This document shows positions 22,417 through 30,136 of a DNA stretch of 64,000 nt, in pieces. A program made the translations under genes and the position numbers. The stretch's first letter is position 1, and each line of letters begins with the position of its first letter. Under the pieces are notes generated by a model. The model did not search any database and had not been told where the DNA came from. It was given only the letters and a program-made list of their open reading frames with translations. Origin of the DNA: Archangium violaceum (GTDB taxonomy: Bacteria; Myxococcota; Myxococcia; Myxococcales; Myxococcaceae); assembly GCF_016859125.1 (NCBI RefSeq), contig NZ_CP069338.1:12403501-12467500 (forward strand), written 5' to 3'.

Positions 22417-25400
22417 ATGACTCCGTGCCCTGACGAGAACGAGCTGCTGGAGTGGGAGCAGGGGCGCCTGTCCGCGGACGCCGTGGCCCGGCTCGAGGCC
22501 CACCTGGATGGGTGCGCGGCATGCAGCACGGTGGTGGCGGGACTCAGGAGTGGAGGGGCCCTGTCCGCGGAGGGCCTGGAGCCCCTGGCGCCGCTCGGTC
22601 CGCCGGGGCCCGGGGAGCGCGTGGGGCGCTACGTGCTGCTGCGCCGCGTGGGCGAGGGGGGCATGGGGGTCGTCTTCGCCGCGTATGACCCGGACCTGGC
22701 CCGGGAGGTGGCGCTCAAGCTGCTCAAGCCCGGGGCGGTGGCGGACGCGGAGGCGCGCGGGCGGCTGGTGCGCGAGGCCCAGGCGCTGGCCCGGCTGTCC
22801 CATCCGAACGTCGTCATCGTGCATGACGTGGGCCAGGACGACGACACCGTCTTCCTCGCCATGGAGCTGGTGCGAGGGCGGACGCTGCGCCACTGGCTCG
22901 CGGAGGCACCGCGGCCGTGGCGCGAGGTGCTCTCCCGCTTCCTCCTGGCGGGCCAGGGGCTGGCCGCAGCGCACGCGGTGGGGCTGGTGCACCGCGACTT
23001 CAAGCCGGACAACGTGCTGCTGGGCGACGACGGCCAGGTGCGCGTCACCGACTTCGGCCTCGCGCGCGCGGGGCCCACGCCCCTGGCCCCACCGGAGCCA
23101 TGGGCCGGGGAGGACCCCGCCCGGGAGACCCCTCCCCCACCGCGGGGAGGCGACACCCTCACCGGCGTCCGGCTGGGCACGCCCGCGTACATGTCCCCGG
23201 AGCAGTGGCGGGGCCTGCGCGCGGACGCGCGCAGCGACCAGTTCAGCTTCTGCGTCGCGCTGTACGAGGCCCTCTTCGGCCAGCGGCCCTTCGCGGGTGA
23301 CACGGTGGAGGAGCGAGCCCGGGCCCTGCGCGAGGGACGGGTGACGCCGCCGCCCCGCGGTTCGGGCGTGCCCGGCGCCGTACGAGACGCCGTGCTGCGG
23401 GGCCTGGCCGCCGAGCCGGCCTCGCGCCACCCTACCCTGGACGCGCTTCTCGCCCGGCTCGAGTCCGGCTCTCGCGCGCGCCGCTGGCGCTGGGCGGCGG
23501 CGCTGGCCATGGGCGTGGCGGCCAGCGCCGCCGCGGGCTTCGGCCTGGCACGGGGTGACGCCGCGCAGGTGTGCACCGGCTTCGAGGCCCGGCTGGAGGG
23601 CACCTGGGACGCGGCGCGCCGGGCCCGGCTGGAGCAGCGCTTCCGTCAGGACTCCCCGCCGGTGCGGGGGGACGCCTTCGAGTCCACCGCGCGGGCGCTG
23701 GACGCCTATGCCCAGGCGCTGGTGGCCCAGGAGCGGCAGTCCTGCGAGGACACACGCGTGCGGCAGGCGCAGTCCGAGCGGCTGATGGACCTGCGCGCCG
23801 CGTGCCTGGATGGCCGGCGCCAGGCATTGCACGACCTGGTGGAGCTGCTGGAGGGAGGCGAGCGGGAGGCACTCACGCGGGCGTCCGAAGCCGCGCGGCA
23901 GCTCCCCTCCCTGGCCGCGTGCGCGGACCGGGACGCGCTCGCCCGCGTGGACCCACTGCCGGAAGCCCCCGAGGCCCGGCGGGAGCTGGCGGCGCTGCGC
24001 CGGGAGCTGGACGGGCTGCGCGTGCGGGGCTCGGCCGGGTTCCATGCGCGCGTACTCCCCCGGCTGGAAGAGGTGGTGGCGGCACTGAGGGAGCTGGGGC
24101 ACCGGCCCACGCTGGCGTGGGCCCTGCTCCTGTTGGGCGAGCTGCGGGGCACCTCCGGGAGCTTCGCCGAGGCGCGCGAGGTGCTGGAGGAGGCGGTGCG
24201 CGTGGCGGAGGCCGGGCACGACGACGAGACGGCCGCGCGCGCGTGGAATCGCCTCCTCTATACGGAAGTCCAGGGCATGGGCCTGGCGAAGGAGGCCCAG
24301 CGCACCGCGCGCATGGCGGAGGCGGCCCTGGAACGGCTGGGGCCCGAGGCCTCCCTGGAGGTGGCCGCGGAGCTGCGCCGCGTCCGCAGCAGCCTCAGCT
24401 ACCGGCAGGGCGAGTACGCACGCGCCCTCACGGACGCCAGCGAGGCCCTGTCCCTGCTGGAGCGGGCGCGAGGGCCCCAGGACGTGGCGCTCGCGGATGT
24501 CCTGACCGGCATGGGCATGGCCCTCAACGCGCTGGGACGCTACGCGGAGGCGGAGCGGCACTATACGCGCGCCCTCGCGCTGGTGGAGGCGGTGTACGGC
24601 CATGAGAACCCGCTGCGCGCGGCGCACCTCAGCAACGTGGCCACCGCGCTGCGGCTCCAGGGAAAGGTGGCCGAGGCGGTGGCGCGCTACGGCGAGGCGC
24701 TCGCGCTGGCCGAGCGCGTCCTCGGAGCGGAGCACTCCAGCACCAGCGTGATCCGGGTGAACCTGGGCGACGCGCTCTCGCGACAGGGTCAGCTGGCGGA
24801 GGCGCTGCCCCACTACGAGCGCGCCCTGGCCAGCCTGCGCAAGGGCGGAGACAGCGAGCAGCCGCGGGTGGCCAACGTGCTGTTGAGCCTGGGCAATGCC
24901 TTGGTGGACCTGGGACAGCTTCCACGGGCGGAGGCGGCCTACCGCGAGGCGCTCGCGCTCCAGGAGGCGCGGCTCGGCCCCCGGCACCCGGACGTGGCCC
25001 TGTCGCGCAACAACCTGGGCTCGGTGGCGATGGACGCGGGCCGCCTGCGCGACGCGCGCGCCCACTTCGAGGCGGCACGCGCGCTGTGGGAGGCCACGCT
25101 CGGCCCCGGACACCCGAAGGTGGCCAGCGCGCTCTACAACCTGGGGCACGTGGAGCTGCGCCTGGGCAGGGTGCGCCCGGCGCTCGTCCACCTGCGGCGG
25201 GCGTTGGAGGTGCGCGAGCAGTCGCTCGGGGTGGAGCACCCCCGGGTGGCGCAGACGCTCGCACTGCTGGGAGAGGCACTGGTGGAGGGTGGCCAACTGC
25301 GCGAGGCCCGCGAGCCACTGGAGCGGGCGGTGGCGCTCTCCAAGCGGGTGGAACTGGCCCCGCCCGAGCTGGCCCGGGCACACTTCGCGCTCGCCCGCGT

Positions 25401-25542
25401 CCTCTGGCAGTCGCACGAGGAGCGGCCCCGGGCGCTCGCCCTGGCTCGGGAGGCCCAGGAGGCCTACGCACGGAGCGCGCCCGCCTACACGCCCCGTGCG
25501 CGCGAGGTGCGGTCCTGGCTGTCCGCCCACGGCTCCCCCTGA
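22417..25542 (+). CDS. Receptor-like Ser/Thr protein kinase with zinc finger and TPR repeats
   Basis: A 1041-residue protein. Residues 1-45 form an anti-sigma-like zinc finger (ARLEAHLDGCAAC). The kinase domain spans about 68-335: GEGGMGVVFAAYD, ALKLLKPG, catalytic loop VHRDFKPDNVLL, VTDFGLAR and GTPAYMSPEQ, all intact. One membrane segment (RWRWAAALAMGVAASAAAGF) follows, then about eight 42-residue kinesin-light-chain-type TPRs (for example ALNALGRYAEAERHYTRALA). The kinase would be cytosolic with the TPR part across the membrane. It is followed after 59 bases by a sigma factor gene, a pairing that suggests phosphorylation or zinc-finger control of transcription. No strong ribosome-binding site precedes the ATG. 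The antisense strand has a very long but spurious open frame. Confidence 0.93.
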   Translation: MTPCPDENELLEWEQGRLSADAVARLEAHLDGCAACSTVVAGLRSGGALSAEGLEPLAPLGPPGPGERVGRYVLLRRVGEGGMGVVFAAYDPDLAREVALKLLKPGAVADAEARGRLVREAQALARLSHPNVVIVHDVGQDDDTVFLAMELVRGRTLRHWLAEAPRPWREVLSRFLLAGQGLAAAHAVGLVHRDFKPDNVLLGDDGQVRVTDFGLARAGPTPLAPPEPWAGEDPARETPPPPRGGDTLTGVRLGTPAYMSPEQWRGLRADARSDQFSFCVALYEALFGQRPFAGDTVEERARALREGRVTPPPRGSGVPGAVRDAVLRGLAAEPASRHPTLDALLARLESGSRARRWRWAAALAMGVAASAAAGFGLARGDAAQVCTGFEARLEGTWDAARRARLEQRFRQDSPPVRGDAFESTARALDAYAQALVAQERQSCEDTRVRQAQSERLMDLRAACLDGRRQALHDLVELLEGGEREALTRASEAARQLPSLAACADRDALARVDPLPEAPEARRELAALRRELDGLRVRGSAGFHARVLPRLEEVVAALRELGHRPTLAWALLLLGELRGTSGSFAEAREVLEEAVRVAEAGHDDETAARAWNRLLYTEVQGMGLAKEAQRTARMAEAALERLGPEASLEVAAELRRVRSSLSYRQGEYARALTDASEALSLLERARGPQDVALADVLTGMGMALNALGRYAEAERHYTRALALVEAVYGHENPLRAAHLSNVATALRLQGKVAEAVARYGEALALAERVLGAEHSSTSVIRVNLGDALSRQGQLAEALPHYERALASLRKGGDSEQPRVANVLLSLGNALVDLGQLPRAEAAYREALALQEARLGPRHPDVALSRNNLGSVAMDAGRLRDARAHFEAARALWEATLGPGHPKVASALYNLGHVELRLGRVRPALVHLRRALEVREQSLGVEHPRVAQTLALLGEALVEGGQLREAREPLERAVALSKRVELAPPELARAHFALARVLWQSHEERPRALALAREAQEAYARSAPAYTPRAREVRSWLSAHGSP

Positions 25543-25601
25543 GCCGGGGCGCCGTGGCTCATTCCCGCCCGCGTGGGTGGGCTTGTCGGTGGAGGTGATG
25601 C

Positions 25602-26483
25602 GTGACGTCCGAGCAGACCGAGTCCTTCCTGTCGCGGGCGCCGCACGCGCTCGTCCCGGCGCTGCGGGCGCTTCCCGGCCTGGAGGAAGCGCTCGCGGGG
25701 CTGGTGCGGGAGGCGCGCGAGGCATGGCCGGAGGTGGGCATGGACGCGGGGGCCTTCCTCGCGTACGTGGCGGAGCGGCTGCCCTCCACGGGCGAGGCCC
25801 TCGAGGTGCTCGCGAGCCTGCGCGCGGAGGATTTCTTCCTCGCCTTCGCCTGCGTGCGGGGGGAGGCGCGGGCGCTCGAGGCGCTCGACACACACGTGCT
25901 GTCCCAGGTGGGGACGTGGCTACCGCGCGAGCAGCCCGCCCTCGTGGACGAGCTGCGGCAGCTGTTGCGCCAGCGGCTGCTGGTCCCGGTGGACGGGGCC
26001 CCCCCCAAGCTGGCCTCCTACTCCGGGCGCGGTCCCCTGGGACAGTGGGTGCGGGCCGTGGCGCTGCGGCTCCACATCGACCGGCAGCGCGCCGCGCCGC
26101 GCGAGCTGCCCATGGAGAATGCGCCGGTGGCGCTGGCGGAGCGGCTGGGCGCGGACCCCGAGCTGGCCTTCATCCGCGAGCGGCACCAGGAGGACTTCCG
26201 CGTGGCCTTCCGCGCCGCGCTGGGCCGGCTGGAGGCCCGGGAGCGCAACCTGCTCCGGCTGCACCACGTGCACGGCCTGTCCATGGACGCGGTGAGCGCC
26301 ACGTACCAGGCACCCCGCTCCACCGTGGCGCGCTGGATTGCCCGCGCCCGCGAGCGGCTGCTGGCGCTCACCCGCGAGGAGCTGACGGCGCGGCTGGGGC
26401 TGACAACCGATGAGCTGGACAGCCTGCTGCGCCTGGTGCGCAGCCAGCTCGACGTCAGCCTGCGTCAACTCATGGCGGACTGA
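25602..26483 (+). CDS. Sigma-70 family RNA polymerase sigma factor, myxobacterial type
   Basis: A 293-residue protein with GTG start and an ideal GGAGGTGAT site six bases upstream. The N-terminal half is helical and atypical. Sigma region 2 appears around LASYSGRGPLGQWVRAVALR and region 4 around RLEARERNLLRLHHVHGLSM ... APRSTVARWIARARERLL. This spread-out arrangement resembles the sigma family described as restricted to Myxococcales (often given as gmx1). It directly follows the zinc-finger/kinase gene and is probably its regulatory target. No separate anti-sigma gene is seen, so the zinc finger of the kinase may serve. Confidence 0.85.
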   Translation: MTSEQTESFLSRAPHALVPALRALPGLEEALAGLVREAREAWPEVGMDAGAFLAYVAERLPSTGEALEVLASLRAEDFFLAFACVRGEARALEALDTHVLSQVGTWLPREQPALVDELRQLLRQRLLVPVDGAPPKLASYSGRGPLGQWVRAVALRLHIDRQRAAPRELPMENAPVALAERLGADPELAFIRERHQEDFRVAFRAALGRLEARERNLLRLHHVHGLSMDAVSATYQAPRSTVARWIARARERLLALTREELTARLGLTTDELDSLLRLVRSQLDVSLRQLMAD

Positions 26484-28654: not shown

Positions 28655-30136
28655 GACTCGACTTTCGCCATTTTGGGCCGGCCGAGCCGCTCGGTTCATG
28701 CGGATTTCGGCTGAGGCCGTGAAGTGGGCTCATTTAAACTGGCGAGAAGAAGATGTGGGTTCACCCAGTCCGTGGAAGCAAGCGTGCGCTGGGCCAGGCG
28801 AAGAATGTCGGCGAAGCTGACGGTGTGTTTGGTGCGGTACCAGGGACGGATGGGCAGTCCCATCTGAGAGGTGTCCAACCCCACCTCCATGTGCCAGAGC
28901 ACCAGGAGGGTGTAGCACATGGCCACCCAAGGTGCCGTTCGCAGCACCGCCAGGGGAGAACGCGCTCGCGAGGAGGAGAAGCCCAGCAGTTGCTTGAGGT
29001 CGCGGAAGAGCACCTCGATGCCCCAACAGCGGGCATAGCATTCAATGACCTGACGAGCGGTGCGGCTCGCGTCGGTGCAGAAGAAGACGCGCAGGGGCAG
29101 TTCCCCACGAAGTTCCTTGACGATGACGATTTTGAGCAGTGTTTTCCCAGAGGGACGAGACCAGCGTGCCACCAATTCCTTGTACTGCACCTGCGTCGGC
29201 TTGCCGTACAGGGTGAGCGTCATGGACAGCCAGGGGAGTTTTTTGTCCCGGGCAAGCTTCTCGGGTTTGGGCAGGGGGATGTCCTTGGTCAGCGGGCGTC
29301 CTGTGACCGGCGAGCGGCACTTGCGCATACGCGGACGGTGCAGCGAAGCATCCGCGCGCATGGCCCCCACGAAGACAACACCCTGTGGTAGGTGGCGCAG
29401 TACCTCCCGGCAGGCATAGGCGGAGTCAGCCACCAACTCCATCGGCTTGTCAGGTAACCAGCGCGACACCTGCTCTACCAACAGGCGCGCCAACTGCGTC
29501 TTCGTCAGGTGGTTGTCCCCGCTTTTCTGGCAGTCGGCCTGGGTCCGGTACAGACGCATGAGGACGGGCAGGGCCCAGAGCCTCGCGGAGAAAGGGACGG
29601 GGACGAGCACGGTCAGTACGACCCAGACATGGCCGAAGGCGAGCACGCCCCTGCGTCGTGTCGAGCGCACCGGGTCGAGGTGCACCCCCAGGCCGAAGAC
29701 CTTGGGCCCCTTGTGGGTGCTCAAGGTGTCGTCGAGTGCCAGGAGCAAAGGCCCCGGCGTGAGTGCCACCAGCCTCAGCAAGAGCAGGCGACCCACCTGG
29801 TCGAGGCTCCAGCGAGCTCGCGAGAAGAAGCGGTGGAAGGCCGCGTGGTGGTGCACACCGGACACGCCCGCGTTCACCAGGGACTCGGTGACGGCGTGCA
29901 CCCCCCGGGTGCTCACCCAGCCAGCAAACAGGGTGAGGAAGCGGCAGAACGAGGGCTGCGTGAAAACGGGACGCAGGAGCAGAAGTAACGGCAGCAGCGT
30001 GTTGATGGAAGGGGCGGTCATCGTGTACTGGACGGGAGAAGTCTTGGTCGACCTCACAACCCGTCCGGTAGCCGTCTCTTCCCTTCTGCTCCGTCGCTCC
30101 CTTGCTCGCCCTCCTCAAAATGGCGAAAGTCGAGTC
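28655..30136 (-). mobile_element. IS4-type insertion element
   Basis: The element is bounded by inverted repeats: GACTCGACTTTCGCCATTTT from 28655, and its exact complement ending at 30136. It carries one intact transposase gene on the minus strand. No target duplication is visible. At its right end it interrupts a nucleoside hydrolase gene, whose frame runs directly into the terminal repeat. Confidence 0.8.
28696..30021 (-). CDS. IS4/IS701-type DDE transposase
   Basis: A 441-residue transposase starting MTAPSINTLLPLLLLLRPVF. The DDE triad is readable: first Asp in LLLALDDTLSTHKGPKVFG, second in ELVADSAYACREV and Glu in the YARCWGIEVLFRDLKQLLGF block, which fits the Y-R-E-K signature of IS4-type enzymes. 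The gene is intact and fills the element between the terminal repeats, so it may still be active. A longer frame begins at 30057. Confidence 0.9.
   Translation of the reverse strand: MTAPSINTLLPLLLLLRPVFTQPSFCRFLTLFAGWVSTRGVHAVTESLVNAGVSGVHHHAAFHRFFSRARWSLDQVGRLLLLRLVALTPGPLLLALDDTLSTHKGPKVFGLGVHLDPVRSTRRRGVLAFGHVWVVLTVLVPVPFSARLWALPVLMRLYRTQADCQKSGDNHLTKTQLARLLVEQVSRWLPDKPMELVADSAYACREVLRHLPQGVVFVGAMRADASLHRPRMRKCRSPVTGRPLTKDIPLPKPEKLARDKKLPWLSMTLTLYGKPTQVQYKELVARWSRPSGKTLLKIVIVKELRGELPLRVFFCTDASRTARQVIECYARCWGIEVLFRDLKQLLGFSSSRARSPLAVLRTAPWVAMCYTLLVLWHMEVGLDTSQMGLPIRPWYRTKHTVSFADILRLAQRTLASTDWVNPHLLLASLNEPTSRPQPKSA

Follow-up and report, generated by a model that had tools for sequence, protein, structure and literature searches.

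The closest described relatives of the gene pair analyzed here, a zinc-finger-bearing receptor kinase and a sigma factor of the gmx1 family from Archangium violaceum, are found among zinc anti-sigma factors and kinase-linked sigma factors. The pair lies in a 64,000-nucleotide stretch of DNA (the window) at 12.40-12.47 Mb of the 12.68-Mb single-contig genome. The Class I zinc anti-sigma domains of ChrR, RsiW, and RslA share with the kinase's finger an H-x3-C-x2-C motif with an upstream ligand, a three-helix unit, and a neighboring sigma gene, whereas here the finger is fused to a kinase and a fourth helix is not predicted. In anti-sigma domains (ASDs), helix 1 contacts sigma-4 and helix 4 contacts sigma-2, according to part of PMC7406223. 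Among extracytoplasmic function (ECF) sigma factors, those of group ECF43 (EcfP/PknT and EcfK/PknS) resemble the gmx1 pair in that the sigma gene stands beside that of a transmembrane Ser/Thr kinase, with no separate anti-sigma. Besides ECF43, groups 59, 61, 62, 217, and 283 are linked to Ser/Thr kinases. Passages of PMC8999054 and PMC13147305 describe ECF43 factors as having typically lost the acidic residues of the DAED motif, the charge being regained by activating phosphorylation, whereas gmx1 keeps its acidic pair. A related logic is seen in SigH/RshA and PknB of M. tuberculosis, where the kinase targets a zinc anti-sigma and thereby releases the sigma factor (same passages), although three proteins are involved there and finger and kinase are a single protein here. 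Further sources consulted in part were PMC3696898, PMC8103513, PMC7694542, PMC11032199, and PMC6791715.

We give an even chance to a reading in which the finger grips the gmx1 sigma factor and holds it at the receptor until the kinase fires and phosphorylation loosens the grip. The finger would be a shortened anti-sigma module of Class I type, most likely gripping its partner at region 4 and the linker between sigma2 and sigma4. A signal sensed by the variable C-terminal part (tetratricopeptide repeats (TPRs), an nSTAND1-FGE or a pilus-N domain) would set off the kinase, which would loosen the grip by phosphorylating either the sigma factor or the finger-kinase itself; the freed sigma factor, with its acidic core-binding pair intact, would then join RNA polymerase. 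The domains, the frequent pairing, the finger's likeness to anti-sigma domains, the co-divergence of the partners, and the intact acidic pair were all computed.

The finger-kinase and its sigma factor

A finger-bearing receptor kinase followed by a sigma gene had been described in the first-pass annotation, and both open reading frames hold up, with matches to zf-HC2, Pkinase, and TPR_12 in Pfam and to TIGR03001 in NCBIfam. The kinase gene (22417..25542, plus strand) encodes 1041 residues that comprise the zinc finger, a Hanks-type kinase domain, a hydrophobic segment, and TPRs. It is separated by 59 bases from the sigma gene on the same strand (25602..26483; 293 residues), which has a GTG start and, by eye, a GGAGG just 5' of it. 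A promoter scan found none, and neither of two terminator-like sites lies between the two genes. The absence of a separate anti-sigma gene is also borne out insofar as no other zinc finger in the window is among the matches listed, from a zf-HC2 scan in which 150 of 367 candidates were scored and from a finger-profile search whose weakest hits fall outside the list; zinc-free anti-sigma proteins were not looked for. Elsewhere in the window, an open reading frame on the minus strand (28696-30057) resembles, by eye, a DDE transposase.

The finger occupies residues 1-48 (22417..22560, plus strand), as delimited by zf-HC2, the alignment, and a predicted model, and its ligands follow the pattern C4-x24-H29-x3-C33-x2-C36, which is the Class I arrangement of Hx3Cx2C with an upstream Cys or His ligand. 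Its zf-HC2 score of 22.3 bits against a Pfam cut-off of 22.2 is marginal taken alone, and this margin of 0.1 bit is what speaks for chance cysteines beside an accidental gene order. We consider that explanation extremely improbable, since the finger scores 63 bits against a profile from 40 such kinase fingers (its own included), and 126 of 129 relatives have Cys or His as the fourth ligand, 25 residues ahead of the histidine, a position that played no part in selection; the pairing at 129 of 140 loci also stands against it. As the census of these kinases demanded HxxxCxxC, the invariance of H29, C33, and C36 follows from the selection itself.

Searched against PDB sequences, the 40-finger profile gave nine matches up to E 10, of which the best six are anti-sigma or sigma-partner proteins and the three weaker ones are unrelated. 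The top match, 3hug_B (E 6.9e-8), is named 'probable conserved membrane protein' and shares its entry with a sigma factor; we take it to be RslA. It is followed by DdvA (8rlz, E 1e-5), the CHAT-domain protein 8rot (E 2.6e-4), ChrR twice (2z2s and 2q1z, about 1e-3), and RsiW (0.31), so that the likeness extends to solved anti-sigma domains (DdvA, ChrR, and 3hug_B). DdvA is also similar in that a large protein carries the finger at its tip; 8rot, a CHAT domain-containing protein of 991 residues with the same finger letters and presumably DdvA itself, from Myxococcus, has CHAT where the window protein has a kinase. The matches and the fourth ligand uphold the earlier description of an anti-sigma-like N terminus, and we read the finger as a putative sigma-gripping module.

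In the AlphaFold model, the finger forms helices at residues 7-14, 20-32, and 34-48, with a mean predicted local distance difference test (pLDDT) score of 84-90 for residues 1-40 and 61 for residues 41-50. The linker that follows (about residues 49-66; 22561..22614, plus strand) is modeled with neither helix nor strand, and pLDDT falls below 50 at residues 48-50 and 52-55. Because the model lacks the helix 4 that known ASDs place on sigma-2, the finger looks like a shortened form of such a domain.

The kinase domain spans residues 72-301 (22630..23319, plus strand; Pfam Pkinase, E 3e-35, and alignment). K101, H192, D194, N199, D212, and G214 are invariant in a 25-row alignment, the model resembles PknA/PknB, and the protein is by its sequence a Hanks-type Ser/Thr kinase with intact catalytic residues and predicted activity. 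Past the kinase domain, a hydrophobic segment (about residues 356-377; 23482..23547, plus strand; hydropathy >=1.6, borders by eye) is probably a membrane anchor, and such a segment is present in 94 of 129 finger-kinases, the window's locus (L039) included. The TPR core covers residues 693-935 (24493..25221, plus strand; Pfam TPR_12, E 2e-76), and the repeats may reach further.

The sigma factor is a member of TIGR03001 (Sig-70_gmx1), scoring 284 bits against a curated NCBIfam cut-off of 154.6, and its closest named relatives, from Archangium, are 91% identical. Of 195 genomes from the phylum, 108 have a family match above the cut-off, and copies number 2 to 11 in each of 19 relatives and six in A. 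violaceum. A fold search with the sigma model ranked ECF sigma factors first, with nothing at E <= 0.001. In region 2.2 lie the acidic pair D116-E117 and Q120 (25947..25961, plus strand), and the pair aligns with the acidic stretch of solved ECF sigma factors such as sigma-E (1or7). Among 182 kinase-linked gmx1 proteins, Asp or Glu is found at position 116 in 159 and at 117 in 181, Q120 is found in 175, and Ser or Thr stands at 116 in only 12. Thus, gmx1 has the adjoining kinase gene of ECF43 but not its replacement of the DAED acidic residues by uncharged residues and a conserved Thr. A core-binding face that is intact needs holding, which would fit a grip by the finger. Region 4, with its Sigma70_r4_2 match, covers residues 201-253 (26202..26360, plus strand).

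Pairing of gmx1 with finger-kinases across genomes

The window sigma factor has eight matches in its own genome, six of them clear gmx1 (E 7e-38 or better). All six are paired with a finger-kinase at gaps of 84-741 bases and in three arrangements, the kinase lying upstream on the same strand, downstream on the same strand, or divergently. A zf-HC2 scan of this genome (150 of 367 candidates scored) gave at least 26 matches at E <= 1, at least 19 of them over the cut-off. Kinase frames contain seven of the 26, and of the 13 others above the cut-off, nine adjoin an ECF-like sigma gene. Kinase matches at E <= 1e-10 number at least 154 in this genome, with 150 of 186 candidates scored, and the seven finger-kinases were seen among them.

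For the census, a kinase with HxxxCxxC ahead of the kinase domain had to lie within 2.5 kb of gmx1. The first set held all gmx1 at E <= 1e-30 in 14 of 19 relatives (92 places; G061, G062, G065, G076, G087, G092, G093, G094, G096, G119, G121, G122, G127, and G136, leaving G086, G118, G128, G130, and G131 outside) and the six of A. violaceum, making 98 in 15 genomes. The second held 42 of 181 listed places from more distant or fragmented genomes, chosen by flank length. A finger-kinase accompanies gmx1 at 93 of 98 places in the first set and 36 of 42 in the second. The misses are L048, L150, L154 (finger-kinase 5.4 kb off), L156, and L164 in the former, and L176 (finger in a different frame from the kinase), L178, L181, L183, L185, and L206 in the latter. 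No same-frame fusion of kinase and sigma factor occurs in the 140 loci. In many myxobacteria, gmx1 is therefore usually encoded beside a finger-kinase. Conservation of the pair was one of the checks that the first-pass annotation had proposed, naming a pair that is not conserved and a finger that does not bind the sigma factor as what would speak against it; the pair is conserved, so half of that objection falls away.

The reverse search, in which the 40-finger profile (A4) was run against 10 genomes, placed 55 of 64 hits of at least 43 bits within 6 kb of gmx1, and 54 of 58 gmx1 genes have such a hit. The nine remaining strong hits comprise six finger-kinases (one 6.8 kb from gmx1), one non-kinase by profile, and two that were not inspected; four further unlinked finger-kinases are among the weaker hits, of which a part was inspected.

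Two loci are of separate note. Under the title Comamonas sp. KCTC 72670, one record (L248) contains gmx1 and a finger-kinase, which may point to a wrong label or a contaminating contig. In G119, near 6.72 Mb, two similar finger-kinases flank an incomplete gmx1 copy with an internal TGA (L159), which is probably a decaying duplicate.

Co-divergence and the proposed grip

The distances of 182 linked pairs, thinned to 140 via shared 4-mers, were compared in a mirror-tree analysis (L182 was left out of alignments A1 and A2, and L235 and L274 out of A5). Pairwise distances of the sigma factor correlate with those of the finger at 0.70 and of the kinase domain at 0.60; the partial correlation is 0.54 for the finger after the kinase is removed and 0.35 for the kinase domain. 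The maximum partial correlation in 999 finger permutations was 0.08, and 20 kinase-domain windows of finger length reached at most 0.62, or 0.30 after the rest of the kinase was removed. Sigma residues 143-217 are those that the finger tracks best (partial 0.22-0.29).

That the finger tracks the sigma factor better than the kinase domain does speaks against its serving the kinase, in metal or redox sensing or dimerization, with the sigma factor a mere neighbor through a shared regulon. So does the finding that six of the seven finger-kinases seen in the A. violaceum genome adjoin gmx1. Finger-kinases lacking a nearby gmx1 do exist, however, and together with the absence of a finger-sigma excess in mutual information and of helix 4 in the model they lend this alternative some weight, though we regard it as quite improbable.

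On the sigma tree of 140 linked sequences, the arrangement changes about 27 times while adjacency is kept (parsimony, midpoint root), though some of the changes may reflect an exchange of partners and not a rearrangement. The pairing itself switches nine times among 164 sequences. G076, G087, and G119 each have a gmx1 with no adjoining kinase and an unlinked finger-kinase whose family elsewhere adjoins the most similar sigma factors. This resembles relocation of the partner, but the branching of the kinases differs from that of the sigma factors, and in G061 one member is linked and another unlinked.

In the preferred reading, of a sigma factor held by the finger, it is physical binding, inhibition, the direction of signaling, and the phosphosite that we infer, and a number of results weigh against it. 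L048, L150, L156, and L164 retain sigma but have no kinase there, and the adjoining kinase has no detectable finger at L206 and L281. A named set (80 of 163 confirmed loci kept, from a scan with relatives of the window sigma factor) has a finger-kinase with only 53 of 80 gmx1. Its 27 misses comprise clades O1 (13 loci) and O2 (three), each monophyletic with support 1.0, three loci (L210, L247, and L268) where a contig end cuts the adjoining kinase frame and puts the finger stretch beyond view, and eight single loci (L221, L245, L249 with a finger-kinase 2.7 kb off, L252, L266, L281, L282, and L287). Some O1 loci are short-flanked, yet others, among them L214, L254, L255, and L258, lack a kinase even though both flanks are complete, and a conserved gmx1 clade thus lives without one. 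Conversely, at least ten finger-kinases have no gmx1 within 6 kb. Helix 4, the sigma-2 cover, is not predicted past the finger, where part of the sequence is low-confidence linker (residues 49-66). No Ser or Thr is conserved at 45% or more in finger-kinase residues 1-58 (best 43%, position 19), a count in which linker positions are unaligned. The finger is more variable than the kinase domain, which can by itself lift a distance correlation, and mutual information shows no finger-sigma excess with an effective number of 95 sequences: finger columns make up 0.05, 0.08, 0.09, 0.13, and 0.135 of the top 20, 50, 100, 200, and 400 pairs, with 0.139 expected. Profile-to-profile comparison of finger and sigma factor likewise gave nothing. 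Finally, the acidic pair rules out only the ECF43 scheme, because other Ser/Thr kinase-linked ECF groups also retain a DAED-like motif, as stated in part of PMC8999054.

This last point bears on a rival that we consider rather unlikely, in which the finger is only a docking site and the kinase, like PknT with EcfP and PknS with EcfK, phosphorylates the sigma factor and so activates or silences it. Parts of PMC8999054 and PMC13147305 describe ECF groups linked to kinases, several of which retain the acidic motif, and none of the 25 aligned kinases deviates at a catalytic residue. In addition, S227 and S240 of sigma region 4, candidate phosphorylation sites judging by their conservation, are Ser or Thr in 84% and 80% of 179 kinase-linked gmx1 and are replaced in both kinase-less clades (13/13 and 3/3). 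This contrast, however, comes from two clades only, with single kinase-less loci outside it, and both sites are in the helix-turn-helix. The sigma2-sigma4 linker, another region of EcfK phosphorylation, has no position with Ser or Thr at 60% or more among kinase-linked gmx1. Docking alone also sits poorly with a finger that resembles anti-sigma fingers and with acidic residues that ECF43 lost and gmx1 keeps. Phosphorylation at S274, S281, or S286, near the C-terminal end of the sigma factor, was rejected as not kinase-specific, because these serines are conserved in the larger kinase-less clade too.

Outside the pairing, O1 gmx1 genes, from metagenome-assembled genomes, adjoin a ClpX-like AAA ATPase gene and a FHIPEP (flagellar/type III export) gene, the domains being taken from one locus each (L229:4794-6206 and L231:6897-7658) and the remainder assigned by clustering. 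Nine further loci (L289, L290, L291, L292, L293, L295, L296, L297, and L303) hold finger-kinases with no gmx1 in the surrounding 12-13 kb.

Sensor parts and significance

The first-pass annotation proposed that one protein senses through its TPRs, holds the sigma factor, and releases it on phosphorylation. It is the natural idea for such a pair. Pair conservation, the anti-sigma-like finger, and co-divergence favor this view, whereas the unpredicted helix 4, the mutual information, the absence of a well-conserved Ser or Thr in the finger, and the kinase-less clade do not, and its sensing detail needs revision. Among 44 finger-kinases drawn at random from 107 non-redundant ones, Pkinase is present in all 44 and zf-HC2 (E <= 0.001) in 27, whereas the C-terminal parts vary: TPR_12 in 30, and nSTAND1, FGE-sulfatase, and T2SS-T3SS_pil_N in five each. 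What stays constant is therefore the finger with the kinase, and TPRs are but one of several sensor parts. Two finger-kinases of about 1300 residues (L045:1996-5880 and L101:1900-5777) carry an nSTAND1 NTPase and an FGE-sulfatase domain and have no clear membrane segment.

Receptor kinases that serve as their own anti-sigma may form a separate class of sigma control, defined by sensing, grip, kinase-driven release, and exchangeable sensors, a proposal that we hold tentatively and rate somewhat below an even chance. In our literature searches, neither TIGR03001 nor a kinase with an anti-sigma finger appeared in any title or abstract start, though body text or the main ECF classification paper may hold a mention, and no functional paper on this sigma family surfaced. 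If the proposal is true, a multi-copy myxobacterial sigma family would gain its partners, and kinases of a kinase-rich genome would be tied directly to transcription. A single protein would combine two modes of regulation already known, sequestration by an anti-sigma and control of the sigma factor by a kinase. The many paralogous pairs lend themselves naturally to tests of partner specificity.

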